A model generated the notes under the pieces. That model searched no databases. It was given only the letters and a program-made list of their open reading frames with translations, and was not told the DNA's origin. The translations under genes and the position numbers were made by a program. Positions 1 to 40,189 of a stretch of DNA of 64,000 bases are shown in pieces (position 1 is the first letter of the stretch; every line of letters starts with the position of its first letter). This DNA is from Isoetes taiwanensis (taxonomy: Eukaryota; Streptophyta; Lycopodiopsida; Isoetales; Isoetaceae): assembly GCA_021234155.1 (NCBI GenBank), contig JAJEKV010000071.1, positions 2,465,246 to 2,529,245 of the forward strand, in the 5' to 3' direction.

Positions 1-66
1 ACTCCAAGAGTGCACCAGGAGCATGTTAGGTTCAGACCTAATGGCCCTCTCGCGCACTCTTAGAGT
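1..66. repeat. Nested palindrome copy 1 of 5
   Basis: The outer arms are ACTCCAAGAGTGC at 1-13 and GCACTCTTAGAGT at 54-66, which pair with one mismatch. An inner inverted repeat, GTTAGGT against ACCTAA, lies near 25-41. The same arrangement occurs at 215, 425, 2039 and 2250. The copy may continue to the left of the window. Confidence 0.85.
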
Positions 67-214
67 AGTCACCCCATATGAACCCTAGAACTTGGCCTTA
101 AGAACCCCAAATGGTAAAATAAAAGATGAAATCCCAGTTAAAATGCTCGAAATAGCTAGAATTTTATCCTGAAACATCGAAAAACATTAAGTACAAGTCA
201 CTTTTGGAACAGTG

Positions 215-282
215 ACTCCAAGAGTGTGCCAGAGTATAGTTAGGTCCCGACCTAACCCCCCCCTCGCGCACTCTTAGAGTCG
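215..282. repeat. Nested palindrome copy 2 of 5
   Basis: The outer arms GACTCCAAGAG and CTCTTAGAGTC enclose the inner perfect palindrome GTTAGGTC-CC-GACCTAAC and a C-rich run. It starts 214 bp after copy 1. The spacers also share a short segment: TTAAAATGCTCGAAATAG near 138 resembles TTAAAATGCTTAAAATAG near 352. This suggests a decayed tandem satellite with a conserved palindromic core. Confidence 0.88.
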
Positions 283-424
283 TCCCTAAAAGTGACCTCA
301 AAAATTGATTATAAATTACTCAAAGGGTCAAAGTAATAATAGGATCTTGCTTAAAATGCTTAAAATAGTGGGTAACAACATGTAAATTGTGTAAATTGGA
401 TGTGTTGGAGCAGAGAAGGCCAAC

Positions 425-490
425 GACTCCAAGAGTGCGCCAGACCATAGTTAGGTCCCGACCTAACCCCATCCTCGCGCACTCTTAGAG
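425..490. repeat. Nested palindrome copy 3 of 5
   Basis: The outer arms are GACTCCAAGAGTGCGC and GCGCACTCTTAGAG, and the inner palindrome is GTTAGGTC-CC-GACCTAAC. It starts 210 bp after copy 2 and ends about 225 bp upstream of the start codon of the H3-like gene. Confidence 0.88.
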
Positions 491-560
491 CCATTCGAAG
501 AAGCAGGAGCAAACAAGACCCCAATTTCGCCCAAGATGAGGAGACTTTCGCCAGCAAACT

Positions 561-714: not shown

Positions 715-1356
715 ATGGCTAGGACCAAACAAACCACCCGCAAGCCAAAGAAGGACGATAGACCCAGCGCCCAAGTGCTCGCCGCTGAACAGAAGCTCAA
801 AGATGCTAACGACAAACTGAAGGCTGACATGGAGAGGCGGCCTAGGTATTACAGGAATTTGGAAAAGAGGCGCAGGAAAGAAGAAAAGGCCAGGAAGAAA
901 GAAGAAAAGGCAAAGAGAAGAGAAGAAAGAGCCAAGAGAAAGGAGGAGAAAGCGAGAAGAAAAGCAGATGAGGAGGTTGCAGAAGCAGAAGACGACCAAT
1001 GGCGAGAGCAAAGAACCAAGAATAGAGAGGATCCCGACCCCAAAGGAAAAAGGGTAATGACTGAAGAACCCCCACCTAAGAAGAGGAGAACCTCGGTCGG
1101 CGTAACCATAAACGAACCAACCGAAGGCGAACAACCTCCAGCCTCGTCAGAAGACACCGATGATATAGCAGAACTCTTGAGGCAACCCTTCTCGGAATGG
1201 GAGAATCCTCACATCAGAAGCCTAACCCTCGTCCGGACACAGATGAAACGCCGGAGGAAGAACCACTCCCAGCTCAAGATGCAGCTGAGACGCAGATTGA
1301 CCTACCTCCGCCATTACCCCCACCATTTTTGGAATGGCAAGAAGCAAAGAAACTAG
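715..1356 (+). CDS. Histone H3-like protein, N-terminal part (H3 tail plus long charged coiled coil)
   Basis: The ORF opens MARTKQTTRKPKK. This matches the histone H3 tail at A1, R2, T3, K4, Q5, T6, R8 and K9, with A7 replaced by T and S10 by P. Residues about 25-105 are a very Lys/Glu/Arg-rich segment predicted to be helical or coiled coil. A KKRR nuclear-localisation-type cluster follows near residue 125, then an acidic stretch near 145-155. The reading frame that ends the gene (1197-1895) is the -1 frame relative to this one. Both frames are open between 1164 and 1356, so the true passage must lie there. A single-base deletion, a sequencing error or recoding would explain it. The last ~50 residues of this ORF are probably out of frame. 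Canonical H3 is about 136 residues and has no such insert. The tail match is seen directly; a role in chromatin is inferred. Confidence 0.8.
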   Translation: MARTKQTTRKPKKDDRPSAQVLAAEQKLKDANDKLKADMERRPRYYRNLEKRRRKEEKARKKEEKAKRREERAKRKEEKARRKADEEVAEAEDDQWREQRTKNREDPDPKGKRVMTEEPPPKKRRTSVGVTINEPTEGEQPPASSEDTDDIAELLRQPFSEWENPHIRSLTLVRTQMKRRRKNHSQLKMQLRRRLTYLRHYPHHFWNGKKQRN

Positions 1357-1895
1357 ATGCAGAGAAAGCAGCTGGCAAGAAAGCAACCAAAATCGCCCGC
1401 GACTCGTACACCTTGGGGCCGGAGAGGAGGTACAAGAAAGAATTAGCAGATTACAAAGTATACAAGAAGATGCACGAGGAATACGTAGCCTATTACGAAG
1501 CAAACAGGGTCAAAGTTGTCGAAGGAGGGAGGCCAACTCGAGAAGCATTCCAGCTCAAACCTCCGCCAGAACTGCCAGAACCCCCCAAGAAGCCTATGAA
1601 GAGATCCCAAGACTCCCCTTTTGCGAGAGCCCTGCGAGAAATCAAACACTTCCAAAGGAGCTATGGATTCCTCATCCCGAGAGCAGCATTCCAGAGGTTC
1701 GTCCGAGAAATCTTGTGGGAGTTCGACCCCAACAAGCAAGTAACCAACGACATGTTACTCGCTTTACAAGAAGCAGTAGAGATGGAGGTCGTACATCATT
1801 TCGAGGATTCATTGGCATGCACTCTCCATGCAAAAAGAGTCACCCTTCAACCAAAGGATATGAAACTGGCTAAATACATCAAGAGGAGAGACTAA
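1197..1895 (+). CDS. Histone H3-like protein, C-terminal part with complete H3 histone fold
   Basis: The ORF first gives a proline/acid-rich linker (residues 1-50) and a Lys/Glu/Tyr-rich segment (50-140). From residue 145 to 232 it aligns along the whole globular part of histone H3. ALREI..FQ (145-153) is the alpha-N helix, FQRFVREI (165-172) is alpha-1, ALQEA (189-193) lies in alpha-2, FEDS (202-205), HAKRVT (211-216) and PKD (219-221) follow. The span of 88 residues nearly equals the 89 of canonical H3. The spacing between VREI and ALQEA is 16, as in canonical H3 and two fewer than in maize-type CENH3. Positions equivalent to C110, H113, R116 and D123, used in H3-H3' contacts, are kept. With the upstream frame the whole protein would be about 393 residues. 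No intron is needed except perhaps at the frame change. It is either a host H3 variant or a retroelement-borne H3. Confidence 0.85.
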   Translation: MGESSHQKPNPRPDTDETPEEEPLPAQDAAETQIDLPPPLPPPFLEWQEAKKLDAEKAAGKKATKIARDSYTLGPERRYKKELADYKVYKKMHEEYVAYYEANRVKVVEGGRPTREAFQLKPPPELPEPPKKPMKRSQDSPFARALREIKHFQRSYGFLIPRAAFQRFVREILWEFDPNKQVTNDMLLALQEAVEMEVVHHFEDSLACTLHAKRVTLQPKDMKLAKYIKRRD

Positions 1896-1956: not shown

Positions 1957-1962
1957 AATAAA
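1957..1962 (+). terminator. Candidate polyadenylation signal AATAAA
   Basis: AATAAA lies 62 bases after the stop codon of the H3-like gene in an AT-rich 3' flank. Replication-dependent animal histone genes use a stem-loop instead; plant histone mRNAs are polyadenylated, so this fits a plant gene. Only the motif supports it. Confidence 0.45.
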
Positions 1963-2038: not shown

Positions 2039-2105
2039 GACTCCAAGAGTGCACCAGAGCATAGTTAGGTCCCGACCTAACCCTCTCCGCGCGGACTCTT
2101 AGAGT
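2039..2105. repeat. Nested palindrome copy 4 of 5
   Basis: The outer arms GACTCCAAGAGT and ACTCTTAGAGT flank the inner palindrome GTTAGGTC-CC-GACCTAAC. It lies 144 bp after the H3-like stop codon, so copies flank the gene on both sides in the same orientation. Confidence 0.86.
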
Positions 2106-2249
2106 TATCCAGCCAACTGGAACAGTCATTAGACCTACTTGCTCCAAACCGGGTAAATAAACAAAGAAACTCGCATTTAGGAAGAAAACTAAAAGGGAAT
2201 TACCCCTTCCACCGCATTTTTTGGATCCATTTGACAGCAATAGGCTAAC

Positions 2250-2317
2250 GACTCCAAGAGTGCGCCAGAGCATACTTAGGTCCCAACCTAACACCCCCCT
2301 CGCGCACTCTTAGAGTC
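2250..2317. repeat. Nested palindrome copy 5 of 5
   Basis: The outer arms are GACTCCAAGAGTGCGC and GCGCACTCTTAGAGTC. The inner repeat is slightly decayed (CTTAGGTCCCAACCTAA). It starts 211 bp after copy 4 and ends about 49 bp before retroelement unit A. Confidence 0.86.
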
Positions 2318-2387
2318 GCCCAACCTTCCCAAGTTCATAACTTGAGCTAGACAAACTTTAGCCTTCATCCCAAATATCAGGAGTTTT

Positions 2388-2460
2388 AGAAACCCTAAAA
2401 ATTTTAGGGCATAAATTCCCTATATATACCCGTATAACCCCTAAACCTCAACCACAAAGA
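2388..2460 (+). promoter_or_regulatory. TATA-type leader of unit A
   Basis: A telo-box (AAACCCTAA) and the inverted pair CCTAAAAATTTTAGG precede TATATATA at 2421-2428, followed by a CA-rich leader. The block is conserved in all three units (TATATATA also at 9034 and 23165), which supports a real core promoter about 120 bp upstream of the ORF1 start. Confidence 0.55.
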
Positions 2461-2540
2461 TTGCTCCCCGCGATTGAGGCGATCTCCCGGCTTACTCAAA
2501 GGCTCCCGGTTCCGCTTGATATCGGCAAACAATTCTCGCC

Positions 2541-4062
2541 ATGGCTACGTAATCTTTCATCGGTTGGTATAGCCCCCACGCTTTGAAGTAGATGTCAATA
2601 TAGTATTCCAAGTATTTCAAAAAGAATTTGACCTTTCAGCAACCCTGAACTCCAATCCTTTCTACCAGCAAGTCCTGCAAGAATTCCAAGAGAAAGTTAT
2701 CCCTAGCTTACAGAAGATACCGCCATGCATAGGGTACTTTGTACCAAGGACCCAGAATGATGCAAAGCGGCCCTCGGTCATGTACCCAATATTGCCAAAG
2801 TATTGCGGAACGTAACCAACCGCTTACCAGCCTACATGACCCTAACCAAAGAATGGAAAAGTTTTCTCCTCCTACAACACTGACCTTTAGCGATATATCT
2901 AGTATATAGGGTCAAACCATAATAGGCTTAACCATCAATTCAGCCACCGGAGGTCACACCCTTGGACGCAAAGTTGATTTAACGACTACCGCCGGAGTAT
3001 GAAGAGACCATAGCGTAAGCATCCGAGAGAGTGAAAACTCCGAAAGGTGAAAAGCGAGGATGACATAGAGGTGGACCCAGAGGGGGAACGCCGGGCGAAC
3101 AAGACATCACCCGCCTCGAAGCCGACAGACCACCCCGAGGATTGCACAACCAATCGGGTTGGGAATAACAAGTTTAGCACCAATCATAGTCGAAGGACAA
3201 GAATACTTGCCGCTAAATGACATCAAAACCTCCCCTAAATCAGGGGACAGAGGGCTACCGTTGTTGATCTAACTCCTTCACCATCTACGGAGACAGCCGG
3301 ATTTAGAAGACTTCATTGACCAAGAAACTGAAGATTTTCCGTGCAAACACGAAGCGCCTACTTACACAGATACACCATGCTCCGGACATTGAAGCTTACG
3401 GCGCTATCAGAGGTATGATGACGGAAGAACTCCCTACCGAGGAGGAGTTTAGAGCACTTCAAGAGCAGATGGGAATAAGGGGGAAGACAACAAGAGTACT
3501 TCAAGGGGAGTCTTCTTCCTCGCAAGAACAGTAGCAAAATTCCAAGGAGAGCCACAAACCCGACAAGTGTACCTAACGCTCTTCCGGGATTATAAGGAAT
3601 TAGTTCAAGTACCCATCGACAAGATTATCGCCAAGGCACGTGGGTACCTCAGAGCACGTGGAGGAGTACGAGAACAGCAAAGACTCAAATATTATCTTCC
3701 GCTCCTAATGCATCGGTAGAGTAATAATATTTCACAAGCGCCAGCCCACACGAGAGGAAGCCGCGGCAGATGCTAGTAGCACTTTCGGGATTTGGCATGC
3801 ACGCACGCTTATCAGAAAAAGTCGACCATGTTATTTTGGTGAAGCGGAAAATAGCCTTGGGCATTTTCGACTTTGCAGTACCACACCTTCGACAAGGTAG
3901 GTTAGTAAAGGACAAAGAGCTCATACCTCCCATAGACGGGTGGAAGAGCTAGCATCCGCCATCCGAGGGGGATCAGCAAGGGATATACTCAGGAACTTGG
4001 GAAGTACAGTAGGTACAGCCAAAGTAAAGAAGTTCCTTGAGGATCACCCAGACTATCAGTAA
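2541..4062 (+). pseudogene. ORF1 of unit A, frame-broken
   Basis: This is homologous over its full length to ORF1 of units B and C. The start codon at 2541 is followed by an in-frame TAA where unit C reads CAGAA. Several further indels follow. Readable fragments include the EELPTEEEFRALQEQMGI segment (3421-3475) and LSEKVDHVILVKRK (3806-3850). The stop TAA at 4060-4062 matches that of unit B. I recognise no domain. The length (~507 codons) and position upstream of gag make it an extra ORF not found in the usual gag-pol chromovirus plan. Confidence 0.65.
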
Positions 4063-4220
4063 ATCAATGTAATGGAAATCATGACTACTGTATTAAGATA
4101 TATCGGCTATATATATTAATATAAGACCCTTTTTGAATTGCATTTCAAAATGTCTTTTTGGTATCGTTGTCTTAACAATCATATCATTTAAACACCTAAT
4201 GCAACCAACAAAAGGAACTC

Positions 4221-4601
4221 ATGATAAATGGTGCCAATGTAATATGTGCAGTCAGAGCAGCTAGGAATGTCGACCTTGAGTTCCAAGCCCAAGGCGATCA
4301 GACACCTCTCAGACAATTCCAGCCTCGGGAACTATTCGAAGAGTATTACGCACCGACACCGGAAGAAGAAATCTCGCAGATGAGGTCAGATCTGCAAGAA
4401 ATCAAAGCCATGCTGGTAGGCAGAGGAAGAAACAAGCAGGACCAGAATGTACAGGTCCCAGAGGCCCGTTCTCAGCACAAAGGAAAGGAGAAAAAGAGGA
4501 ACCGACCCAGATCTTCTAGTTCCAGCTCTTCCGACAGCTCGGATTCAAGCTCGAAGTCCGAGGAGGAAACAAGAAGAACGGCCCGAAGGAAGAAAGAATA
4601 A
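4221..4601 (+). CDS. Gag N-terminal segment, unit A
   Basis: This 126-residue ORF starts 158 bp after the ORF1 stop. An acidic N-terminal part contains EYYAPTPEEEISQMRSDLQE. It is followed by a basic, serine-rich SR-like tract (GKEKKRNRPRSSSSSSSDSS) and ends by frameshift. Units B and C contain the same start region at 10838 and 24968. It is presumably the N-terminal domain of the Gag polyprotein that forms the virus-like particle. The serine/arginine tract could bind nucleic acid. Role by position and family. Confidence 0.6.
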   Translation: MINGANVICAVRAARNVDLEFQAQGDQTPLRQFQPRELFEEYYAPTPEEEISQMRSDLQEIKAMLVGRGRNKQDQNVQVPEARSQHKGKEKKRNRPRSSSSSSSDSSDSSSKSEEETRRTARRKKE

Positions 4602-4776
4602 CGGAGGCAGCAAGGCCAATCCGACTACCGTAAGAAGGTCGATTCGCTTTAAGTAATGTTTGAAAGCACGAAAATGGAACAGCTTTTCCGCTTAAAAACA
4701 GATCGTGGATGGAAGTCAAGCATGGCTAGACGAGATGAGTGAGTACGGAAATGCTTACGCATGAAAGATAAAGATA

Positions 4777-5125
4777 ATGGCAGTGGTAGCCACCGCTAAC
4801 TTGAAAGGGGCAGCCCGTATTTGGTGGAGGGGTTATGCTAAAGCCCATGGAATGAGCAGAGACAAGTGCAGGTTCACAAAGTTCGCAAGGGCCTTCAAAA
4901 AGCACTATGTTCCAAGAGAACACAAGTGCCACCAGATGCAAGCATTCCACAGATTGCAACAGGGGAACAAATGCATTGAAATATACGGAAGAGTTCATGA
5001 GGTTGAGGCTATATGTGCCAAAACTCAGCGAGAGAAGAGCAGTGGAAGGCTATCTGGAGGGGTTGAATGAGGACCTATGGAAGATAGTCCGAGCCCTCAA
5101 CCCACGCCAAGATTCGGAGGCTTGA
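4777..5125 (+). pseudogene. Gag core domain, unit A
   Basis: Two overlapping frames together show the retrotransposon Gag core pattern: LKGAARIWWRGYAKAHG, then FKKHYVPREHKCHQM, QGNKCIEIY and LRLYVPKLSERRAVEGYL. The W-W pair and the F-YVP motif are typical of the retrotrans_gag family. A one-base shift near 4980 splits it. Units B and C carry the same domain. Confidence 0.7.
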
Positions 5126-6430
5126 AGCTTAAGGCACCGAGCCTACAAGGGACAGGCCTCGTAAAAGTGAACCCAAGCAATTGGTATGACAAAGGAAAAG
5201 CATATGGAGGTCGAGCCCAAGAGCAAACAGTCCATCGCCTGCAAAGACACCATACACCGGAAATCAATGGAAACAGCCAGAGAAAAAGCAGGTCAGCTTC
5301 AAAGAGAAAGGACAAGGGGAGGCTCAAATTATTCAAAAGACAGTCAAGTAGTTCCTCAACTCCATCCCGAAAAGAAAAGCGGCAGGAATGTATAGAAAAA
5401 CAGTTGAAGCTTAGGTGTTTCCAAGTGGGGCATAGAACACACAACCGCCTGCTCAGTAATGAATGCAAAGACTTTATGAGATGGGAGGTTGGGAGACCCA
5501 AACATGTAAGAAGAGGAGGACTAAAGACGCTTAACTATATCCATGGTGAGTGTCACATCTTTGCCGCCATAGACACGTAAAAGCGCAGAGAGCCGCATAC
5601 CAAGTAATATCCACGATTGGTAAAATAGCCGCCAAATCTTTTATAGTCCTCATAGATCGTGGCGCTCCCACAATTTCGCCACCAAGGATGGCACAAATGC
5701 TAAAGTTGAAAACACTAAAGTCTAAGCCTGCACCAAGAGTAGTGTTAGCCGAGCCATCATAAGCACACGGGCCGGCAAGAGGGTGAATTTCAATCTAGAC
5801 TTACCGGGTATCAATATTGAAATGGGAGCAGAGATCATGAGCATAGGAAAATATGACCTCATCATAGGTATGGAATACCTCAATCCGGCGAAAGCACAAA
5901 TAGATTGTGGAGAGCGGAAGGTGAAGCTCACGGCGCCTAACGGGAAAATCATAGAAATCTCAGGTAAGCAAGTGACACCTATAATGCAATGCATGTCGAG
6001 TAAGAAATTACTTAGATGCATCAAAAGGAGCAAGTTGCATACATCTTCAAATTAGAACTTGCGAAGAAGAAGAGGCACCAGAAGATAAGGAAGATAAACC
6101 AAGAAGCAAACTTGTAGTAGCCAAGCTAATAGAGGAATTCCATGACTTGTTCCCCGATGAAATCAAGGAGCTTCCGCCATATAGGGGAGTAGAGTGCTAA
6201 ATTGCACTTTCGAACTGTGCACTAAGCCCACGCAGTAAGGCACCATATAGAATGACAGCTCACCTAACTATCGAGTTGAAGAAGCAATTGCAAGAGCTAT
6301 TAGACCTAGGGTTCATAAGACCTAGTGTCTCCGCTCGGAGCCCCCATATTATTCGGCCAAAAGAAAGATGGAAGCTTGAGGATGTGTATTGACTATCGCC
6401 AATTAAACAAACACACAATCAAGAACAAGT
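5126..6430 (+). pseudogene. Gag tail, zinc knuckle, protease and RT start, unit A
   Basis: The stretch is collinear with the intact 456-residue ORF of unit B but is cut by frameshifts. The zinc-knuckle stretch (about 5401-5455) has lost its second Cys codon. The protease active-site region near 5640-5670 reads LIDRGAP where unit B has LIDCGSS. The flap-like segment IGMEYLNPAKAQIDCGERKVKL (5860-5930) is readable in the 5783-6055 ORF. RT motif APYRMTA lies near 6240. Confidence 0.7.
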
Positions 6431-7777
6431 ATGCCTTACCCTGAAGCGGATGACCCGATGGATCAATTACAAAGCGCCGTGGTCTTCCAAGATAGACTTA
6501 AGGTCCGGATATCATCAAATCAGAATCAAAGAGGAAGATATTCACAAGACGGCCTTCCAACAAGATACCACCACTATGAATTTGGCCATGCCATTTGGCC
6601 TATCAAATGCCTTCAAAGAACGTTCATGAGACTCATGAACGATATCTTTCGAGAATTCCTTGACACATTTGTTATCGTGTTCTTCGATGACATTTTGGTG
6701 TATAGCAAGTCCCTAGAGGAGCATATTCAGCACTTTAGAAGGGTACTTGAGAAGCTGAGAAGACACCAGCTTTATGCGAAGTTGTCGAAATGTCATTTCG
6801 CCACCGAAAGAGTGGAATACTTGGGGCATATCATATCAGCAGACGGCATCTCCACCGATCCGGCAAAGATCCAAGCAGTGATTGAATGGCCAGCACCAAA
6901 GAACATACACGAGGTGAGAAGTTTTTTGGGCTTAGCAGGATATTATAGAAAGTTCATCAAGAACTTTGCTAAGATAGCAGCACCCTTAACGGACCTTACC
7001 AAGGCAGAAAAGATAAAAGACTGGGTGGCACATTGGCAAAAGAAGGCTCAAGTAGGATTTGAGAAGTTAAAGGAGGCCTTAACAACCGCCCATGTCTTAA
7101 CATTGCATGATCCAGAGAAGGACAAGCTAGTCGCAACTGATGCGAGCAAGATTGCGACGGGAGCAGTCTTAATGCAAGAGGAAAGAGTCGTAGCATACGA
7201 TTCACGAAAGACGAATGACGCAGAGACTCGCTACCCGACACATGATCAGGAGCTATTGGCAGTAGTAAGAGCTTTAAAGATCTGGAGACACTATCTATTG
7301 GGAAGGAATTTCCAATTAGATACCGACCACCAGAGTCTGCAGTACATCTTCACGCAACCATTGTTGAATTTAAGACAAAGAAGATGGATGGAGTTCCTCG
7401 AAGAGTACGACTTCGAGATTGTATACAAGCCAGGGAAACTCAATGTGGTCGCAGACGCTCTATCAAGGCACCCCTTAACAACAAGGGTGCATTGCAATGT
7501 CATATCAACACTTACCAGTGAGTTTGGCAAGAAAATAGAAGAAACGCTGCCAACAGACAAGGACTTCCAGGAAGTATGGGCTAGCCTCTCTAAAGAGGCA
7601 AGAAGGGACAAAGAGAGAGAAGCCTTCAAACATTTTAAGAAGGAAGGAAAGCTCTTGTACCATAAAAATAAGTTGTGTGTGCCGGAATCATCCGGAGTCA
7701 GAAGGTTGATTCTCCATGACACCCACAACAACCCAATAGCCGGCCACGCAGTTTTTTTAAAACCTACTTCAAGATAA
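6431..7777 (+). CDS. Pol segment, unit A: RT, RNase H and start of integrase
   Basis: This is the longest surviving pol ORF in the array (448 residues). After a frame-scrambled RT beginning, it reads [16 protein letters not shown] and the catalytic box [12 protein letters not shown] (about residues 84-95), then the thumb segment [11 protein letters not shown] and [16 protein letters not shown]. RNase H follows with [37 protein letters not shown] and [12 protein letters not shown], then the connection [17 protein letters not shown]. The integrase N-terminal HHCC finger begins at [12 protein letters not shown] before the frame breaks. FFDD is a normal plant Gypsy variant of the YxDD box. Confidence 0.9.
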
Positions 7778-9027
7778 GAAGTAGTTACTATTGGCCGTGC
7801 ATGAAGAAGCAGATAGCAAGGTACATACGCGAAAGTGTCAGCTATGCCGCCCAGACCAAAGCGAACAACTACTAAATCCGTGAGCATTAGAGCCATTGCC
7901 GCACCAAACTCCAAGTGGGAGATAATAAGCATGGACTTCATTACAGTGGCTCCCTAGAACCATAAGGGGCAAAGATGCCTTAATGGTCGAGTCGACAAAT
8001 TGTCGAAGATGGCGACTTTGTGCCTTTGTAGGAGCACCGACACGGATTAGACAAATGGGTGCTATTCACTAAGGAGATTTTTTAGACTCCATGGGATGCC
8101 AAGAGAAATAATCTCTAATAGAGATTTGAAGTTCATGAGTGCATTCTGGCAGGATCTCTTCAGCACCATCGGAACGAAATTGTCAATGAGCACGGCTTAT
8201 CACCCTCGCATGATGGGTGACGGAGCGCACCAATTGGATACTCGAAGATATGGCGGAATTATGTCCGAACAAGAATCAAAGTGGGATGACTTCATTTACT
8301 TGGTTGAGTTTGCATACAATAGCACCAAGCAAGAGTCATCCCAAATGTCGCCGATTTATGATCAACTACGCTATCGATTGCTTGACACCGCACACTTGGC
8401 ACAACCCCATTGTCCAAGGTAGAAGTATCCCAGGATGATACCGTAGAGAGATGCAACAATTGGTTGAAGAGGTGCGAGGATACCTCCCAGCAGCAAGAAG
8501 CCGGCAAAAGAGCATAGCTGATCTAAGACCTAACAAAGAAGGGAGTTCCAAGTAGGGGACAATGTTTGGCTAAAAGATAAAAGTCAAACAAGCAAAGCTC
8601 GCGATCGGCCATTGCAAGAAGCTTGCTCCAAGGTGGGCTGGTCCATTTAAAATTGTCAAAAAGAGTAGGTAACCAAGCCTACAAATTGACTTACCAAAGA
8701 CACCCTCAAGATCCATAGAGTCTTTCACGTAAGTCTCCTAAAGAAACACACTCCTAATCCAGAGGAAGTATTGGAGACACCGAAGTTTATTGGAATTAAC
8801 GGACGATCAACTTGAGATTGTTCCCCAGGTTCTTCTCGAATCCATCTTATAAGAAGACGGTAGAAGATCTCAATTTCTCCAAAGACCTTGTGAAATGGAC
8901 GACTTACCAATGGAGGACGCCACTGGTACTACAATCGATCTTGAGAAGCATTACCCACAATGCAAGGGTCATGCAAGGGTCATCCCAAATGTCGAGTTTT
9001 AGAAACCCTAAAAATTTTAGGGCATAA
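7778..9027 (+). pseudogene. Integrase core and chromodomain of unit A, fragmented
   Basis: The YYWP and MKKQIARY part of the zinc finger is split over frames near 7780-7830. The core shows MDF (near 7931), then RLHGMPREIISNRDLKFMS-like sequence at 8085-8145 and the AYHP block near 8195. The third catalytic region, ERTNWILEDM, is in another frame at 8220-8255. The C-terminal part has KIHRVFHVSLLKKH-like sequence near 8710-8750. The chromodomain remnant LVKWT lies at 8888. It ends in a short unnatural tail at 9027, encoded by unit B's leader. Confidence 0.75.
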
Positions 9028-9151
9028 ATTCCCTATATATACACGATAACCCCTAAACCTCAACCACAAAGATCGCTCCCGCAATTGAGGCGATCTCCCG
9101 GCTTACTCAAAGGCCCCGGGCCTGCTCGAGCATCGGCAACACAATTTCGCC

Positions 9152-10679
9152 ATGGTTACGTAATCTTTCATCGCTTGGTATAGCCTCCCCCGCTGTTGAA
9201 GTAGATGTCAATATAGTATTCCAAGTATTTCAAAAGAATTTGACCTTTCAAAGCAACCCCTCAACTCCAATCCTTTCTACCCGACAAGTCCCGCAAGAAT
9301 TCCAAGAGAAAGTTATCCCTAGCTTACGTAAGAAGATACCGCCATGCATAGGGTACTTTGTACCAAGGACCGCGAATGCAAACAAATTTCAGTCATGTAC
9401 CCAATATTGCCAAAGTATTATGGAATGAACCAACCGCTTACAGCCTACATGACCCTAACCAAAGCAATGGAAAAGTTTTCTTCCTCCAACAACAACCTTT
9501 AGCGATATATATCTAGTATATAGGGCCTAAAACCATAATAGGTGAACCATCAATTCAGCCACCGGAGGTCACACCCTTGGACGCCTTGTAGACCTAATCA
9601 AGCATCGGGCTTGAGTATGAAGAGACCATAGCGTAAGCATCCGGGAGAGAGTGAAGACTCCGAAAGCAGAAAGCGAGGATGACATAGAGGTGGACCCAGG
9701 AGGAGGAACGCCGCTTTGAACAAGACATCACCCGCTTGAAGCCGACGGGACCACCCCGAGGATTGCACAACCAATCGGCCTGGGAATAACAAGTTTAGCA
9801 CCAATCATAGTCGAAGGACAAGAATACTTGCTGCTAAATGACATCAAAAACCTCCCCGAATGCAGGGACAGAGGCTACCGCGTCGACGAACTCCTTCACC
9901 ATCTACGGAGACAGCCGGATTTAGAAGACTTCATTGACCAAGAAACTGAAGATTTTCCGGTGCAAATATGAGAAGCAGCTACTTACACAGGACACACCAT
10001 GTCGGACATTGAAGCTTACGGCGCTATCAGAGGTATGATGACGGAAGAACTCCCTACCGAGGAGGAGTTTAGAGCACTTCAAGAGCAGATGGGAATAAGG
10101 GGGAAGACAACAAGAGTACTTCAAGGGGAGTCTTCTTCCTCGCAAGAACAGGTAGCAAAATTCCAAGGGAGAGCCACAAACCTGACAAGTGTACGAACGC
10201 TCTTCCAGGATTATAAGGAATTAGTTCAAGTACCCATCGACCAGTATGCGTCAAGGCACAGGGGTACCTCAGGAGCACGTGGAGGAGTACCGGGAACAGC
10301 ACTCAAATATTATCTTCCGCTCCTAACAGACGGTAGAGTAATAATATTTCACAAGCGCTTCAGCCCACACGGAGAGGAAGCTGTGCAGATGCTAGTAGCA
10401 CTTTCGGGATTTGGCATGCACGCACGCTTATCAGAAAAAGTCGACCATGTTATTTTGGTGAAGCGGAAAACAGCCTTGGGCATTTTCGACTTTGCAGTAC
10501 CACACCTTCGACAAGGTAGGTTAGTAGTGACAGCAGCTCATACCTCCCATAGACGGGTGGAAGAGCTAGCATCCGCCATCCGAGGGGGATCAGCAAGGGA
10601 TATACTCAGGAACTTGGGAAGTACAGTAGGTACAACCAAAGTAAAGAAGTTCCTTGAGGATCACCCAGACTATCAGTAA
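9152..10679 (+). pseudogene. ORF1 of unit B, 3' half open
   Basis: The start at 9152 is followed by ACG TAA where unit C has ACA GAA. The first half is frame-broken. From 9999 the frame is open for 226 codons to TAA at 10677-10679. This half carries the EELPTEEEFRALQEQ segment, a Ser/Gln stretch, KYYLPLLTDGRVIIFHKRFS and LSEKVDHVILVKRK, and the end FLEDHPDYQ. No known domain is recognised. Together with unit C's open 5' half it shows that the ancestral ORF1 had about 510 codons. Confidence 0.7.
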
Positions 10680-10837
10680 ATCAATGTAATGGAAATCATG
10701 ACTACTGTATTAAGATATATCGGCTATATATATTAATATAAGACCCTTTTTGAATTGCATTTCAAAATGTCTTTTTGGTATCGTTGTCTTAACAATCATA
10801 TCATTTAAACACCTAATGCAACTAACAAAAGGAACTC

Positions 10838-11620
10838 ATGATAAATGGTGCCAATGTAATATGTGCAAATGAGCAGCCTAGGAATGTCTAACCTTTGAGT
10901 TCCAAGCCCAAGGCGATCGACACCTTCTTCGCATTAATTCCAGCCTCGGGAACTATTCGAAGAGTATTACGCACCGACACCGGAAGAAGGAATCTCGCAG
11001 ATGAGGTCAGATCTGCAAGAAATCAAAGCCATGCTGGTAGGCAGAGGAAGAAACAGGCAGGACCAGAATGTACAGGTCCCAGAGGCCCGTTCTCAGCACA
11101 AAGGAAAGGAGAAAAAGAGGAACCGACCCAGATCTTCTAGTTCCAGCTCGACTGGCTGGATTCAAGCTCGAGTCCGAGGAGGAGGAAAAGAAGAACGACG
11201 GGAAGGAAGAAAGAATAACGGGAGGCAAAGAAGGCCAATCGACTACCGTAAGAAGGTCGATTCGACCTTAAGTAATGTTTGAAAGCACGCAGCCGGAACA
11301 GAAGCCCGCGAAAAACAGATCGTGGATGGAAGCGGGCTAGCATGGCTAGACGAGATGAGTGAGTACGGAAATGCTTACGGCATGAAAGATAAAGATAAAA
11401 GGTGGTAGCCACCGCTAACTTGAAAGGGGCAGCCCATATTTGGTGGAGGGTTATGCTAAAAGCCCATGGAATGAGCGAGAGACAAGCGCGTGTTCACAAA
11501 GTTCGCAAGGGCTTTCAAAAAGCACTATGTTCCAAGAGAACACAAGTGCCACCAGATGCAAGCGCCCACAGATTGCAACATGGGGAACAAACTCCCGACT
11601 GAAATATACACGAAGAGTTC
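10838..11620 (+). pseudogene. Gag N-terminal part and core, unit B
   Basis: The gag start ATG at 10838 lies 158 bp after the ORF1 stop, as in unit A. The open piece 11001-11282 holds MRSDLQEIKAMLVGRGRN and the basic/Ser-rich tract. The core domain (LKGAAHIWW near 11419-11446, FKKHYVPRE) is spread over two frames. It runs into the long ORF starting at 11621. Confidence 0.65.
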
Positions 11621-12991
11621 ATGAGGTTGAGGCTATATGTGCCAAAACTCAGCGAGAGAAGAGCAGTGGAAGGCTATGTGGAGGGGTTGAATGAGGACCT
11701 ACGGAAGATAGTCCGAGCCCTCAACCCACGCTCAGTATCGAAGGCGGAAGCGAAGGCACTGAGCCTACAAGGGACAGGGCCTCAGAAAAGTGAACCCAAG
11801 CAGTGGTATGACAAAGGAAAAGCATATGGAGGTCAGAGCCCAAGAGCAAACAGTCCATCGCCTGCAAAGACACCATACACCGGAAATCAATGGAAACAGC
11901 CAGAGAAAAAGCAGGTCAGCTTCAAAGATAAAGGACAAGGGGGAGGCTCAAATTATTCAAAGACAGTCAAGCAGTTCCTCAACTCCATCCCGAAAGAAAA
12001 GCGGCAGGAATGTATAGAAAAACAGTTGTGCTTCCGGTGTTTCCAGCTGGGGCATAGAACACACAACTGCCCGTTCGTAATGAATGCAGCACTTGCGGAG
12101 ATGGGAGGTTGGGAGACCCCGACAGAAGAAGAGGAGGACGAAGGACGCGACTATATCCATGGTGAGTGTCACATCTTTGCCGCCATAGACACAGAAAGCG
12201 CAGAGAGCCAGTACCAAGTAATATCCACGATTGGTAAAATAGCCGCCAAATCTTTTATAGTCCTCATAGACTGTGGCAGTTCCCACAATTTCGCGTCACC
12301 AAGGATGGCACAAATGCTAAAGTTGAAAACACTAAAGTCTAAGCCCAGACCAGTAGTGTTAGCTAGCGGAGCCATCAGGCACACGACCGGCAAGAGGGTG
12401 AATTTCAATATAGACTTACCGGGTATCAATATTGAAATGGGAGCAGAGATCATGAGCATAGGAAAATATGATCTCATCATAGGTATGGAATACCTCAATC
12501 CGGCGAAAGCACAAATAGATTGTGGAGAGCGGAAGGTGAAGCTCATGGCGCCTAACGGGAAAATCATAGAAATCTCAGGTAAGCAAGTGACACCTATAAT
12601 GCAATGCATGTCGAGTAAGAAATTACTTAGATGCATCAAAAGGGAGCAAGTTGCATACATCTTCAAATTAGAACTTGCCGAAGAAGAGGCACCAGAAGAT
12701 AAGGAAAATAAACCAGTAAGCAAACTACCCAAGCAGGTAGCCAAGCTAATATTCCATGACTTGTTCCCCAACGAAATCAAGGAGCTTCTGCCATATAGAG
12801 GAGTAGAGTGCGAAATTGCACTCGAACCAGGCACTAAGCCCACGAGTAAGGCACCATATAGAATGACAGCTCACGAACTATCAGAGTTGAAGAAGCAATT
12901 GCAAGTGCTATTAGACCTAGGGTTCATAAGACCTAGTGTCTCCTCGTTCGAGCCCCCATATTATTCGGTCAAAAGAAAGATGGAAGCTTGA
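11621..12991 (+). CDS. Gag C-terminus, CCHC zinc knuckle, protease and RT N-terminus, unit B
   Basis: This 456-residue ORF is the best-preserved central part of the polyprotein. Residues 1-45 finish the Gag core (LYVPKLSERRAVEGYVEG). The zinc knuckle CFRCFQLGHRTHNC is at 137-150 (12029-12070) and matches CX2CX4HX4C. An acidic EEEEDEG linker follows. The aspartic protease active site DCGSS is at 217-221, with the downstream IIGMEYL segment near 290. The RT fingers begin near residue 405 (APYRMTAHELSELKKQL) and reach GFIRPS before a frameshift at 12988. Gag and protease are therefore fused in one frame, with no separate pol start. It supplied capsid assembly, RNA binding and polyprotein cleavage. 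Confidence 0.9.
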   Translation: MRLRLYVPKLSERRAVEGYVEGLNEDLRKIVRALNPRSVSKAEAKALSLQGTGPQKSEPKQWYDKGKAYGGQSPRANSPSPAKTPYTGNQWKQPEKKQVSFKDKGQGGGSNYSKTVKQFLNSIPKEKRQECIEKQLCFRCFQLGHRTHNCPFVMNAALAEMGGWETPTEEEEDEGRDYIHGECHIFAAIDTESAESQYQVISTIGKIAAKSFIVLIDCGSSHNFASPRMAQMLKLKTLKSKPRPVVLASGAIRHTTGKRVNFNIDLPGINIEMGAEIMSIGKYDLIIGMEYLNPAKAQIDCGERKVKLMAPNGKIIEISGKQVTPIMQCMSSKKLLRCIKREQVAYIFKLELAEEEAPEDKENKPVSKLPKQVAKLIFHDLFPNEIKELLPYRGVECEIALEPGTKPTSKAPYRMTAHELSELKKQLQVLLDLGFIRPSVSSFEPPYYSVKRKMEA

Positions 12992-14110
12992 GGATGTGTA
13001 TTGACTATCGTCAATTAAACAAACACACAATCAAGAACAAGTATGCCTTACCCGAGGCGGATGACCCGATGGATCAATTACAAGGCGCCAGTGGTCTTCT
13101 CGGTGATAGACTTAAGGTGCGGATATCATCAAGTCGAGAATCAAAGAGGAAGATATTCACAAGAAGAACAAGATCGGCCACTATGAATTCACGATCCATG
13201 CCATTTGGCCTATCAAATGAACAAAGAACGTTCATAAGACTCATGAACGATATCTTTCGAGAATTCCTTGACACATTTGTTATCGTGTTCTTCGATGACA
13301 TTTTGGTGTATAGCAAGTCCCTAGAGGAGCATATTCAGCACTTGAGAAGGGTACTTGAGAAGCCGAAGACACCCCTTTTATACGGTTGTCGAAATGTCAT
13401 TTCGCCAATCGAAAAGAGTGGAATACTTGGGGCATATCATATCGCCAGACGGGCATCTCAACCGATCCCAAGAAAGATCCAAGCAGTTGATTGAATGGCG
13501 GCCACCAAAGAACATACACGAGGTGAGAAGTTTTTTGGGCTTAGGATATTATAGAAAGTTCATCAAGAACTTTGCTAAGATAGCAGCACCCTTAACGGAC
13601 CTTACCAAGGCAGAAAAGATAAAAGACTGGGTGGCACATTGGCAAAAGAAGGCTCAAGTAGGATTTGAGAAGTTAAAGGAGGCCTTACACAACGCCCTGC
13701 CTTTAACATTGCATGATCCGAGAAGGACAAGCTAGTCGCGAATCGATGCGCAAGCAAGATTGCGTGGGAGCGCCTTAATGCAAGAGGAAAGAGTCGAAAG
13801 CATACCATTCACGAAAAGATGAATGACGTAGACTCTCGCTACCCGATACATGATCGTGAGCTATTGGCGTTAGTAAAGAGCTTTTAAAGATCCGGAGACA
13901 CTATCTATTGGGAAGGAATTTCCAATTAGATACCCACCACCGAGTCCGGCATTACATCTTCACGCTAACCATTGTTGAATTTAAGACAAAAAGATGGATG
14001 GAGTTCCTCGAAGAAAACGACTTGAGATTGTATACAAGCCGTGGAAAACTCAATGTGGTCGCAGACGCGCTCTATCAAAGGCACCCCCTTAACAACAAGG
14101 GTGCATTGCA
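12988..14110 (+). pseudogene. RT and RNase H, unit B, frame-broken
   Basis: [22 protein letters not shown] opens the RT palm in the 12988-13494 frame, followed by the catalytic [12 protein letters not shown] at about 13280-13315. After a shift, [15 protein letters not shown] is read at 13355-13735. RNase H (LDTHH, NVVADAL) remains in pieces around 13920-14090. The palm has lost the segment that reads [14 protein letters not shown] in unit C. Confidence 0.8.
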
Positions 14111-14498
14111 ATGCCATATCAACACTTACTAGTGAGTTTGGCAAAGAAAATAGAAGAAACGCCAACAAAGGACTTCCGTGAAGTATGGGCTAGCCTCTCT
14201 AAAGAGGCAAGAAGGGACAAAGAGAGAGAAGCCTTCAAACATTTTAAGAAGGAAGGAAAGCTCTTGTACCATAAAAATAAGTTGTGTGTGCCGGAATCAT
14301 CCGGAGTCAGAAGGTTGATTCTCCATGACACCCACAACAGCCCAATAGCCGGCCACGCAGGTTTTACGAAAACCTACTTCAAGATAAGAAGTAGTTACTA
14401 TTGGCCAGGCATGAAGAAGCAGATAGCAAGGTACATACGCGAGTGTCAGCTATGCCAGCAGACCAAAGCGGAACAACTACGAATTCCAGGAGCATTAG
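14111..14498 (+). CDS. Integrase N-terminal zinc finger, unit B, cut by insertion
   Basis: The linker is followed by the complete HHCC finger: HDTHNSPIAGHAGF, SSYYWPGMKKQI, then ECQLCQQTK. Translation runs six codons into the TIR element before a stop at 14515, so the authentic coding part ends at 14498. Coding resumes after 22013. Confidence 0.85.
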
Positions 14499-14524
14499 AA
14501 GCCTTATGCAATTAAATTGAGAGA
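14499..14524 (+). repeat. Left terminal inverted repeat
   Basis: AAGCCTTATGCAATTAAATT and six more bases match exactly the reverse complement of 21988-22013. Confidence 0.92.
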
Positions 14525-22013: not shown

Positions 22014-22017
22014 TTAG

Positions 22018-22427
22018 AGCCATTGCCAGTATCAAACTCCAAGTGGGAGATAATAAGCATGGACTTCATTACAGGGCTCCCTAGAACCATAAGGGGCAAA
22101 GATGCCTTAATGGTCGTAGTCGACAAATTGTCGAAGATGGCGCACTTTGTGCCTTGTAGGAGCACCGACACGGCATTAGACACAGCGGTGCTATTCACAA
22201 AGGAGATTTTTAGACTCCATGGGATGCCAAGAGAAATAATCTCTAATAGAGATTTGAAGTTCATGAGTGCATTCTGGCAGGATCTCTTCAGCACCATCGG
22301 AACGAAATTGTCAATGAGCACGGCTTATCACCCTCGCATTTGGATGGGCGCATCGAGCGCAGCAACCAATCGATACTCAAGATATGTTGTGGAATTATGT
22401 CTCGAACAAGCAATCAAAGTGGGATGA
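22018..22427 (+). CDS. Integrase catalytic core, unit B
   Basis: The frame is open from inside the TIR element (21981). The host part reads LEPLPVSNSKWEIISMDFITGLP, giving the first catalytic Asp in MDF. It goes on with ALMVVVDKLSKMAHFVP and RLHGMPREIISNRDLKFMS, giving the second Asp in NRD, then MSTAYHP. The third catalytic residue (Glu in the ERTN region) is lost by a frame change near 22345. This is the standard DDE core of Ty3/Gypsy elements. Confidence 0.88.
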
Positions 22428-23109
22428 CTTCATTTACTTGGTTGAGTTTGCATACAATAGCACCAAGCAAGAGTCATCCCAAATGTCGCCATTTATGATC
22501 AACTACGCTATCGATGTTGACACCGCATTAATTTGGCACAACCCCCGTGTCCAAGGTAGAAGTATCCCGCCAGATGCTCGCCGAGATGCAACAATTGGTT
22601 GAAGAGGTGCGAGGATACCTCCTAGCAAAGAAGAAGCCGCAAAAGAGCATAGCTGATCTAAGACCAACAAGTAAGGGAGTTCCAAGTAGGGGACAATGTT
22701 TGGCTAAAGATAAAAGTCAAACAAGCAAAGCTCCGCATCGGCAATTGCAAGAAGCTTGCTCAAGGTGGGCTAGTCCATTTAAAATTGTCAAAAGAGTAGG
22801 TAACCAAGCCTACAAATTGGACTTACCAGCACACCTCAAGATCCATAGAGTCTTTCACGTAAGTCTCCTAAAGAAACACACTCCTAATCCAGAGGAAGTA
22901 TTGGAGACACCGAGTTTACTGGAATTAACGGACGATCAACTTGAGATTGTTCCTGAGGTTCTTCTCGACCGATCTTATAAGAAGACGAGAAGATCTCAAT
23001 TTCTCCAGTACCTTGTGAAATGGACGCACTTACCAGTGGAGGACGCTACCTGGGTACTACAATCAGATCTTGAGAAGCATTACCCACAATGCAAGGGTCA
23101 TGCAAGGGT
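22018..23109 (+). mobile_element. Unit B of the array, right part
   Basis: It continues the integrase exactly where the left part stopped at 14498 and ends at the unit C boundary. Together the two parts match units A and C in length. Confidence 0.85.
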
Positions 23110-23158
23110 CATCCCAAATGTCAGGAGTTTTAGAAACCCTAAAAATTTTAGGGCATAA
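22547..23158 (+). CDS. Integrase C-terminus with chromodomain, unit B
   Basis: The ORF of 203 residues contains the GPF-like segment ASPFKIVKRVGNQAYKLDLP, then KIHRVFHVSLLKKH and a linker. The chromodomain YLVKWTHLPVEDATWV lies near residues 158-173, followed by DLEKHYPQ. In chromoviruses this module guides integration to heterochromatin. The last ~20 residues are not native: they are read from unit C's leader after a junction at GCAAGGGTCATGCAAGGG. Unit C shows the native tail. Met at 22547 is internal, not the true start. Confidence 0.9.
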   Translation: MSKVEVSRQMLAEMQQLVEEVRGYLLAKKKPQKSIADLRPTSKGVPSRGQCLAKDKSQTSKAPHRQLQEACSRWASPFKIVKRVGNQAYKLDLPAHLKIHRVFHVSLLKKHTPNPEEVLETPSLLELTDDQLEIVPEVLLDRSYKKTRRSQFLQYLVKWTHLPVEDATWVLQSDLEKHYPQCKGHARVIPNVRSFRNPKNFRA

Positions 23159-23283
23159 ATTCCCTATATATACCCGTATAACCCCTAAACCTCAACCACA
23201 ACACTGCTCCTGCGATTGAGGCGATCTCCCAGCTTACTCAGGCGCTCCCAGTTCCGTTCGATATCGGCAACACAATTCTCGTC

Positions 23284-24351
23284 ATGGTTACAGAATCTTT
23301 CATCAGTTGGTATAGCGCCTCCCCCCACGTTGCTGAAGTAGATGTCAATATAGTATTCCAAGTATTTCAAAAAGAATTTGACCTTTCAGCAACCCTGAAC
23401 TCCAATCCTTTCTACCAGCAAGTCCTGCAAGAATTCCAAGAGAAAGTTATCCCTAGCTTACAGAAGATACCGCCATGCATAGGGTACTTTGTACCAAGGA
23501 CCGCAATGCAAACAGCCCTCAGTCATGTACCCAATATTGCCAAAGTATTGCGGAACAGAACCAACCGCTTACCAGCCTACATGACCCTAACCAACAATGG
23601 AAAAGTTTTCTTCTCCTACAACACAGCCTTAGCGATATATCTAGTATATAGGGCCGAAACCATAATAGGCGAACCATCAATTCAGCCACTGGAGGTCACA
23701 CCCTTGGACGCAGCAGCAGACGAACGGCTACTGCTGGAGTATGAAGAGACCATAGCAGAAGCATCCGGAGAGAGTGAAAACTCCGAGCAGGAAAGCGAGG
23801 ATGACATAGAGGTGGACCCAGAGGAGGAACGCCACGAAGCGGAACAAGACATCACCCGCTTCGAAGCTGATAGGACCACCCCGAGGATTGCACAACCAAT
23901 CGGGCTGGGAATAACAAGTTTAGCACCAATCATAGTCGAAGGACAAGAATACTTGCTGCTAAATGACATCAAAAACCTCCCCGAATGCAGGGACAGAGGC
24001 TACCGCGTCGACGAACTCCTTCACCATCTACGGAGACAGCCGGATTTAGAAGACTTCATTGACCAAGAAACTGAAGATTTTCCGGTGCAAATACGAGAAG
24101 CAGCTACTTACACAGGACACACCATGTCGGACATTGAAGCTTACGGCGCTATCAGAGGTATGATGACGGAAGAACTCCCTACCGAGGAGGAGTTTAGAGC
24201 ACTTCAAGAGCAGATGGGAATAAGGGGGAAGACAACAAGAGTACTTCAAGGGGAGTCTTCTTCCTCGCAAGAACAGGTAGCAAAATTCCAAGGGAGAGCC
24301 ACAAACCTGACAAGTGTACCTAACGCGGCTTCCGTGATTATAAGGAATTAG
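23284..24351 (+). CDS. ORF1 of unit C, open 5' portion (355 codons)
   Basis: This is the best copy of ORF1. The start ATG at 23284 lies 112 bp after TATATATA. The protein begins MVTESFISWYSASPHVAEVD. A globular N-terminal part (1-130) is followed by a strongly acidic stretch near 155-195 (ENSEQESEDDIEVDPEEE). A middle part contains EGQEYLLLNDIKNLPECRDR and LHHLRRQPDLEDFIDQET. Then come MSDIEAYGAIRGMMTEELPT and a Ser/Gln run. A frameshift near 24330 removes the 3' half, which continues collinear with unit B to about 24812. There is no signal peptide, membrane segment or domain I recognise. It may encode an extra structural or regulatory protein of the element. Confidence 0.75.
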   Translation: MVTESFISWYSASPHVAEVDVNIVFQVFQKEFDLSATLNSNPFYQQVLQEFQEKVIPSLQKIPPCIGYFVPRTAMQTALSHVPNIAKVLRNRTNRLPAYMTLTNNGKVFFSYNTALAIYLVYRAETIIGEPSIQPLEVTPLDAAADERLLLEYEETIAEASGESENSEQESEDDIEVDPEEERHEAEQDITRFEADRTTPRIAQPIGLGITSLAPIIVEGQEYLLLNDIKNLPECRDRGYRVDELLHHLRRQPDLEDFIDQETEDFPVQIREAATYTGHTMSDIEAYGAIRGMMTEELPTEEEFRALQEQMGIRGKTTRVLQGESSSSQEQVAKFQGRATNLTSVPNAASVIIRN

Positions 24352-24814
24352 TTCAAGTACCCATCGACCAGCCCAAGAGCGCCAAGGCAAGGGGGTACCT
24401 CGAGGGGCACGTGGGAGGAGTAAGGAACAAGACTCAAATATTATCTTCCGCTCCTAACAGACGGTAGAGTAATAATATTTCACAAGCGCTTCAGCCCACA
24501 CGAGGAGAGGAAGTCGCGGATGCTAGTAGCACTTTCGGATTTGGCATGCATGCACGCTTTATCAAAAAAGTCCACCATGTTATTTTGGTGAAGCGGAAAA
24601 CAGCCTTGGGCATTTTCGACTTTGCAGCACTACCACACCTTCGACAAGGTAGGTTATAAAGGACAAACAGCTCATACCTCCCATAGACGGGTGGAAGAGC
24701 TAGCATCCGCCATCCGAGGGGATCAGCAAGGATATACTGTGAACTTGGGAAGTACAAGAGGGTACGCCCAAAGTAAAGAAGTTTTTTGAGGATCACCCGC
24801 ACTATCAAGAAATC
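24352..24814 (+). pseudogene. ORF1 of unit C, frame-broken 3' part
   Basis: It is collinear with 10180-10679 of unit B. KRKTALGIFDFA-like sequence is at 24590-24625. Numerous single-base differences break the frame, and the stop codon has changed (CAGTAA in B, CAAGAA here). Confidence 0.6.
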
Positions 24815-24967
24815 AATGTAATGGAAATCATGACTATCAGATTAAGATATATCGCTATATATATTAATATAAGACCCTTTTGAATTGCATTTCAAAATGT
24901 CTTTTTGGTATCGTTGTCTTAACAATCATATCATTTAAACACCTAATGCAACCAACAAAAGGAACTC

Positions 24968-27127: not shown

Positions 27128-27477
27128 TTGAGGATGTGTATTGACTATCGTCAATTAAACAAACACACAATCAAGAACAAGTATGCCTTACCCAGAGCGG
27201 ATGACCCGATGGATCAATTACAAGGCGCCAGGGTCTTCTCCAAGATAGACTTAAGGTCTGGATATCATCAAATCAGAATCAAAGAGGAAGATATTCACAA
27301 GACGGCCTTCCGAACAAGATACGGCCACTATGAATTCACAGTCATGCCATTTGGCCTATCAAATGCCCCAGCAACGTTCATGAGACTCATGAACGATATC
27401 TTTCGAGAATTCCTTGACACATTTGTTATCGTGTTCTTCGATGACATTTTGGTGTATAGCAAGTCCTTAGAGGAGCA
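27128..27477 (+). CDS. RT palm of unit C, truncated by Helitron 2
   Basis: This is the cleanest RT palm in the window: [49 protein letters not shown] and [16 protein letters not shown]. It includes the first catalytic Asp (KID) and the FFDD pair. The original sequence continues at 34260 after Helitron 2. Confidence 0.92.
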
Positions 27478-36064: not shown

Positions 36065-36257
36065 TGGATAGGTTCAATATCAGACGCTTTATACCTTTAA
36101 CACGATGAATTGAATGATACGGGTACAAATTTGCCGTGATAAAACCCAAAAAATACTAAGAAAAACAATTCCGAAAAATTTTCAGACGGGAACAACGGAA
36201 AGCCGTTTTAAAATTTTCCAAGACGCCAAAACAAAGGAAAACCGCTGCATGTAAGAA

Positions 36258-36296
<39 letters not shown>

Positions 36297-36307
36297 TTAA
36301 AACGCTG

Positions 36308-36345
<38 letters not shown>

Positions 36346-36433
36346 CTCACAAGAAAAAAAAAAAAAAAATTTTTTTTTTTGAATTTTTTCAAAAAAACGC
36401 CAGAATTGTAACACAAATTTTTTTCACAGACGC

Positions 36434-36516
<83 letters not shown>

Positions 36517-38690: not shown

Positions 38691-38699
38691 AGGGCACAC

Positions 38700-39406: not shown

Positions 39407-39437
<31 letters not shown>

Positions 39438-40160: not shown

Positions 40161-40189
40161 AATCTTCGATATTGCAATAAAATAATCAC

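Follow-up and report, generated by a model that had tools for sequence, protein, structure and literature searches.

A histone H3 gene between the 5' LTR and gag of chromodomain Ty3/gypsy retrotransposons in the quillwort Isoetes taiwanensis

Histones are regarded as a property of the host and as something that mobile elements must cope with. Ty3/gypsy elements of orchids reportedly carry an AlkB domain. The presence of additional ORFs (aORFs) in plant LTR retrotransposons is described in the available part of PMC7264820. As for H3 itself, the accessible parts of PMC3538342 and PMC6710886 report that hAT elements of two fungi carry H3 sequences: in Pyrenophora tritici-repentis an H3-like gene (H3L) within hAT DNA transposons, in Pseudocercospora fijiensis fragments of H3. 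In the open-licence literature we found transposon-borne H3 only as these fungal hAT elements, and the word 'histone' is absent from the main texts of PMC7264820, PMC6338049, PMC8566536 and PMC10541799.

In this work we have analysed a stretch of 64 kb from Isoetes taiwanensis (the window), which holds the ORF of a giant H3 homologue in two frames, one with an N-terminal tip and one with a C-terminal fold. The N-terminal frame (715..1353, plus strand, stop at 1354-1356) is open and runs from the tip MARTKQTTRK into a charged, coiled-coil-like stretch. The C-terminal frame (1197..1895, plus strand) is in another frame than the first and encodes 232 amino acids (1197-1892) followed by a stop at 1893-1895. 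An earlier sequence-only reading had joined the two into a single H3 homologue, citing MARTKQTTRK at 715 and the motifs ALREI, FQRFVREI, ALQEA, FEDS, HAKRVT and PKD, all of which are indeed present in this order. It had also proposed a profile search of both frames, which bore out one of them: 1197-1892 matches PF00125 with E=4.3e-22 through its residues 129-228, which places the H3 histone fold at 1581..1880 on the plus strand, whereas 715-1353 alone gave no histone match in Pfam, as is expected for a tip of only 10 residues. Against the PDB, the fold frame matched H3 chains from E=2.8e-19, and the best 60 of 178 matches were all H3 chains, so that we are dealing with core histone H3 rather than with another core histone.

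The ORF of the window copy is frame-broken and cannot itself be read as the single frame that had been assumed. Tip frame and fold frame are both open over ~1164-1353, and no classical slippery heptamer was found by eye in this overlap. According to the available part of PMC8566536 the assembly is nanopore-based and was polished with racon and pilon; sequencing errors may thus account for some of the frame breaks. Could the tip-like start and the fold-like end belong to two unrelated genes? This is excluded by unbroken single-frame copies elsewhere in the genome: 14 of the 30 loci that we excised (L001-L030) have an uninterrupted ORF of 393-400 amino acids from MARTK, which agrees with the predicted homologue of ~393 residues with its tip at the N-terminus and the whole fold at the C-terminus. 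The H3-like spacing of the globular part was confirmed as well, the alignment of the intact relatives with H3 being gapless between ALREI and the fold end, and the same relatives have the long charged and proline-rich stretch that had been placed between tip and fold. The product of this family (family A) consists of an ARTKQTARK tip, ~280 charged and proline-rich residues and a full H3 fold, ~393-400 residues in all.

Behind the ORF of the window copy there is an AATAAA (1957..1962, plus strand), a possible polyadenylation signal of an H3 transcript, and TATATATA (2421..2428, plus strand) is a possible internal promoter ahead of gag. Of the 30 loci, 28 have AATAAA no more than 200 nt past the end of the ORF, mostly at a distance of 62-71 nt, 27 have TATATA 350-720 nt past the ORF, and 25 have both. 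Such a pattern would be compatible with a message for H3 alone and a promoter for gag-pol inside the element, in which case H3 could be made independently of Gag-Pol. The ORF is also framed by 70-nt hairpin repeats on the plus strand, three before it (1..70, 214..283 and 425..494, with z of -5.1, -8.7 and -9.2) and two 3' of it (2039..2108 and 2250..2319, with z of -4.5 and -7.3). All five fold far better than shuffles and none matched Rfam at the gathering threshold; to the eye, the five repeats look perfect.

We show that the H3 ORF is an accessory gene of a chromodomain Ty3/gypsy LTR retrotransposon of ~13 kb, in which it lies between the 5' LTR and gag. Seen by itself, the window shows no more than an ORF beside gag-pol pieces, and it was on such a view that the sequence-only reading had spoken of an H3 variant in the sense of a host gene. 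The gene of a host H3 variant into whose surroundings retroelements had inserted would look the same there; this explanation is refuted, and we give it practically no credence. When the 29 loci L002-L030 are compared with L001, 28 of them have homology on either side of the ORF and are collinear with L001 into gag, L007 reaching only the start of the gag unit, and LTR pairs together with target duplications rule out a host gene with elements around it. Paired LTRs stand around the ORF in five of the six copies examined, the sixth (C1046) having only a 155-bp repeat pair. LTR-sized direct repeats flank the ORF in the copies C1100, C952, C1034 and C1043, and 5-bp target duplications were found in three of the six copies: CCACC (C1100), AGAAC (C952) and CCAAG (C1061); the others are nested, rearranged or partial. 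The gene is thus a repeated one within an LTR retrotransposon.

The LTR of ~1.57 kb has the form TGTGACG...GTCACA and is directly followed by TGGTATCAGAGC (PBS) in C1100, C952, C1034 and C1043. This PBS, which we take to be of the initiator-tRNA-Met type, adjoins the 5' LTR in five of the six copies examined, and a polypurine tract, AAGGTGGGGAGAA or a close form of it, stands just before the 3' LTR. From LTR to LTR, C1100 spans ~13.2 kb; the K2P between paired LTRs is 0.029 in C1100, 0.055 in C952 and 0.057 in C1034. The order of Pfam domains on the window pieces (RVP_2, RVT_1, RT_RNaseH, rve, SH3_Tf2-1, Chromo) is that of a chromovirus pol. Two other carriers were considered and rejected: a hAT element with terminal inverted repeats is ruled out, the carrier being an LTR retrotransposon, and a viral or phage origin found no relative among viral contigs or phages. 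In the chromodomain alignment, which was read by eye, W45 is kept and non-aromatic residues stand in place of Y24 and Y48; judged by this alignment, the domain is plant group II-like and lacks two of the three methyl-lysine cage residues. The binding partner of the plant group II chromodomain is not known, according to the available part of PMC3350952. Could the integrase directly read the element's own K9? With two cage residues missing, this idea is not supported.

The ORF of the window copy belongs to one large rearranged element in which gag-pol has been tandemly multiplied. The 5' LTR of this element falls outside the window, on its upstream side (L031:5366-5524 and 8332-9739), and inside one LTR pair there are three to four head-to-tail gag-pol units or pieces on the plus strand, with a period of ~6.6 kb and 85-91% identity. 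Unit 1 (2365..8979) comprises leader/gag, protease, RT-RNaseH and integrase-chromodomain in broken frames, with Pfam RT and RNase H on 6407-7774, and the first part of unit 2 (8980..14499), ~91% identical to unit 1, has a protease domain on 11603-12988. They are followed by the integrase end and chromodomain of a gag-pol unit (22014..23117; rve, SH3_Tf2-1, Chromo), by the first part of unit 3 (23109..27477) and by a last, more diverged piece (34256..37153; 85-86% identical). The first part of the 3' LTR (37868..38696, plus strand) has the AAGGTGGGGAGAA polypurine tract before it, and its last part (40273..40482, plus strand) comes after a polypyrimidine-rich stretch of ~1.6 kb (38696-40273) by which the LTR is broken. 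There is no H3 ORF and no LTR between the units of the array; recombination and template switching in reverse transcription are candidates for its origin. Unit 3 has the longest gag-leader ORF (23284-24351), which encodes 355 amino acids without a Pfam match and has near its middle the sequence GQEYLLLDDI, common to the second element family described below. A tRNA-Met(CAT)-like sequence (21525-21599, minus strand) lies inside the interrupted element, an inverted LTR-related fragment (43721-44094; 70.6% over 394 bases) lies outside the main element, and the window also has a dispersed repeat (14934-17572 and 56110-58564; 79% identical).

The genome searched comprises 1110 sequences with a total of 1,658,258,908 bases. 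For the 232-aa frame as a query, the best 150 of 9470 candidates all match, at 55-100% identity. The exact DNA pattern for MARTKQTARK was found at 1051 sites genome-wide (516 + 535) and the reversed control pattern at none, so the tip is not a product of chance. Host-like H3 genes explain only ~15 of these sites: a canonical H3 query found 15 such genes (96-98% identity over 1-136) among the best 150 of 9022 candidates, the other 135 of this best 150 having 71-86% identity and lying, in many cases, in open frames of 400-500 amino acids. Three of the 15 host-like genes were fetched, and one of them has T31, Y41, H87 and L90, which we take to be the plant H3.3 signature. Five tip sites, picked among the first 100 for differing codons, all have an H3-fold match downstream (E 6e-23 to 7e-6), the weakest match covering 16 residues; the five are unlike family A in their middle and are all broken. 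On the minus strand of C217, MARTKQTARK starts at 120970, 126779 and 132560, a spacing of ~5.8 kb that suggests tandem copies of another H3-bearing element, and the first of the three has an H3-like match downstream. Within family A the tip varies little: in 17 ORFs (14 unbroken and three intermediate) it reads ARTKQTARK 14 times, ARTKQTAPK twice and ARTKHTARK once, and both divergent relatives (L047 and L048, family A2) have ARTKQTARK.

A second family (family B) was sampled from the 135 lower-identity matches as four loci (L053-L056), with flanks taken from C1061. All four have an ORF of 409-421 amino acids which starts with MAITK or MATTK and has the H3 fold at its end, and none has the ARTKQTARK tip. 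In their fold, L053 and L054 agree with host H3 at 75 of 86 positions (87%). The LTRs of C1061 are 93.5% identical (K2P 0.051), with the target duplication already given and the same PBS type, and compared with the window element its RT is 70% and its integrase-chromodomain 54-81% identical. Judged by these similarities, this is a distinct chromovirus family with the H3 ORF in the same slot. We found no similarity of the family-A N-terminal part to that of family B; the alignment of the two proteins begins just before the fold. The long middle had been thought of as an insert into H3. Rather than having been inserted into one recent H3 gene, it is a sequence specific to the element family and differs from one family to the other. 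In the tree, family B clusters with the host H3 sequences, next to one of which it stands with 92/64 support; a long branch leads to family A.

Is it possible that the element has captured a host H3 gene and amplified it without any function, as in the fungal hAT-borne H3 copies? Gene capture by transposons, H3 included, is known from the accessible parts of PMC3538342 and PMC6710886, and many copies here are broken, 16 of 30 loci having no unbroken ORF from MARTK. We nevertheless hold this explanation to be very improbable in view of the substitution pattern. The ORFs compared were the unbroken ones among the top protein matches (14 of L001-L030, three intermediate, two divergent and four of family B); all copies were sampled through the H3 ORF itself, residues 1-161 (the tip and most of the middle) lying outside the query that chose them. 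In the 91 pairs of the 14 unbroken family-A ORFs, pS is 0.362 and pN 0.060, and omega is 0.13 overall at a dS of 0.5, with 0.02 for residues 1-10, 0.15 for the middle and 0.05 for the fold. Against the three intermediate relatives (71-81%) omega is 0.14 overall at a dS of 1.05 (tip 0.01, middle 0.16, fold 0.07). Against the divergent pair, where synonymous sites are saturated, pN is 0.008 in the tip, 0.404 in the middle and 0.210 in the fold. Family B gave an omega of 0.11 within the family (no nonsynonymous change in the fold in three pairs) and 0.08 against L055. As a control, RT gave 0.30 over 375 codons in the sole usable within-family pair (C952 vs C1034), since a long open RT frame is missing from three of the six copies and comparisons with family B are saturated. 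By these ratios, the H3 ORF is under purifying selection within family A. Divergence between copies also far exceeds that between the LTRs inside copies (K2P 0.029-0.057), which means that the filtering of substitutions took place in the active period of the lineages, and a functionless passenger would not be expected in the same slot of two element families.

The family-A fold has ~51% identity to host H3 (44/86). We tabulated 23 ORFs (17 of family A, two of A2 and four of B) at residues which we take to be those needed in nucleosome structures, including H3-H3 and DNA contacts. L61, F67, I74, R83, L92, E97, F104, D106, C110, H113, A114, K115, R116, T118, L126 and I130 are kept in all 23, and R69, R72, K122 and D123 in 22. 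In all 19 A and A2 ORFs R63 is replaced by proline, K79 by aspartate, and K56 is not lysine, whereas family B keeps these residues; nucleosomes with the family-A protein would for this reason differ from host nucleosomes. A single-sequence AlphaFold model of 1569-1892 has the helices in the right order at low confidence (pLDDT 64.8), and Foldseek with this model gave H3 chains as the best PDB matches, with a TM of ~0.37 and none at E<=0.001. CENH3/CENP-A is characterized by a longer loop 1 and a divergent N-terminus. This identity was rejected for the quillwort protein, whose fold is gapless against H3 and whose tip equals that of H3.

Could the protein act in the particle rather than in chromatin? 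Its fold and basic stretches might condense the RNA or cDNA of the element in virus-like particles, in the manner of a nucleocapsid and outside host nucleosomes. Viruses with their own histones exist, and a Marseillevirus nucleosome chain is found at rank 34 of the Foldseek matches. The gene adjoins gag, the DNA-contact residues of the fold are largely kept, and the middle is strongly charged, with 66 K+R and 60 E+D in 283 residues (L003). A packaging protein, however, gives no role to a tip conserved at an omega of 0.02, nor to the H3-H3 interface set C110, H113, L126 and I130, kept in 23 of 23 ORFs, and there was no H4, H2A or H2B partner among the Pfam matches in the element pieces examined. 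We therefore regard a packaging role as rather unlikely.

The near-unchanged tip together with the fold suggests that the element deals with host chromatin through H3. The explanation that we favour as a whole, and which we consider reasonably probable, is that the element encodes an H3 whose protein enters nucleosomes and shows its tip to host readers. The protein would enter the nucleus, pair with host H4 and be incorporated into nucleosomes as an H3 variant. Its long extension would then project from the nucleosome, the free tip offering a K4/K9 platform to the readers and modifiers of the host H3 tail. Where it is deposited, the chromatin state might be altered, and expression of the element, tethering of its integration complex or both might be favoured.

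Perhaps the tip works without the nucleosome. The protein could be a decoy: as a mimic of a histone, it would titrate away silencing factors of the host, namely the writers and readers of H3K9/K4, by means of its tip, and the fold would serve just for nuclear retention. The exact ARTKQTARK in 14 of 17 A and two of two A2 ORFs and the 1051 genomic sites would suit such a decoy, and so would the restriction of the likeness to the tip, since the residues past K9 are unlike H3 (no S10 and no K27 context). But the fold, at an omega of 0.05, is more conserved than a retention signal needs to be, and family B has no tip at all; we think a decoy unlikely. The lack of the tip in family B also bears on the favoured explanation, that of an element-encoded H3 in nucleosomes: display of the tip cannot be a function common to all families. 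With a near-canonical fold in family B, the shared function would sit in the fold, and the tip would be an added function of the MARTKQTARK families. In those families, the self-made H3 variant may serve as both landing pad and shelter, drawing tail readers, and via them the integrase complex or the transcription machinery, to chromatin that the element has marked. Several families, more than 1000 tip copies and a 9-residue tip kept while nearly all else diverged are consistent with this idea, which we put forward tentatively and as a possibility that may well prove wrong.

What would such a gene mean? A lineage of LTR retrotransposons encodes and conserves its own H3, with an exact tip and in high copy, and should this protein become part of chromatin, the nucleosome itself would be edited by a selfish element. 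If this is true, the quillwort would offer a natural system for the study of an H3 N-terminal tip on a 280-residue arm and of the escape of elements from silencing, and for asking whether H3 variants arise by domestication of such genes. There is also a warning for annotation: in genomes of this kind, what is listed as a long 'H3 variant', or swells the number of H3 genes, may be a gene of a retroelement.

How does the quillwort element compare with what has been described? With CENH3/CENP-A and other H3 variants its protein shares the H3 fold and a divergent N-terminal part; it differs from them in being encoded by a retrotransposon, in a loop 1 that is not lengthened, in an unchanged tip and in ~280 extra residues. 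It resembles the plant chromoviruses, as presented in the available part of PMC3350952, in its LTRs, tRNA-Met-type PBS, gag, protease, RT-RNaseH, integrase with an SH3-like part and group-II-like chromodomain, and differs from them in the extra ORF of ~400 codons for H3 between the 5' LTR and gag, flanked by blocks of hairpin repeats. Like the plant aORFs and the orchid AlkB domain, this ORF is accessory coding capacity kept in an element lineage. The fungal hAT H3L is similar in being an ORF derived from H3 that is carried and multiplied by a transposable element. As far as the accessible parts of its reports describe it, however, H3L is found in DNA transposons, in tens to hundreds of copies, as a recent or inactivated capture and with insertions in the tail, whereas the quillwort carrier is a plant LTR retrotransposon with a giant ORF and an element-specific N-terminal part, with the gene in the same slot of two families and under strong purifying selection. 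Accessory genes of LTR retrotransposons and transposon-borne H3 are both already known; what is unusual here is the conservation of the gene and its abundance.
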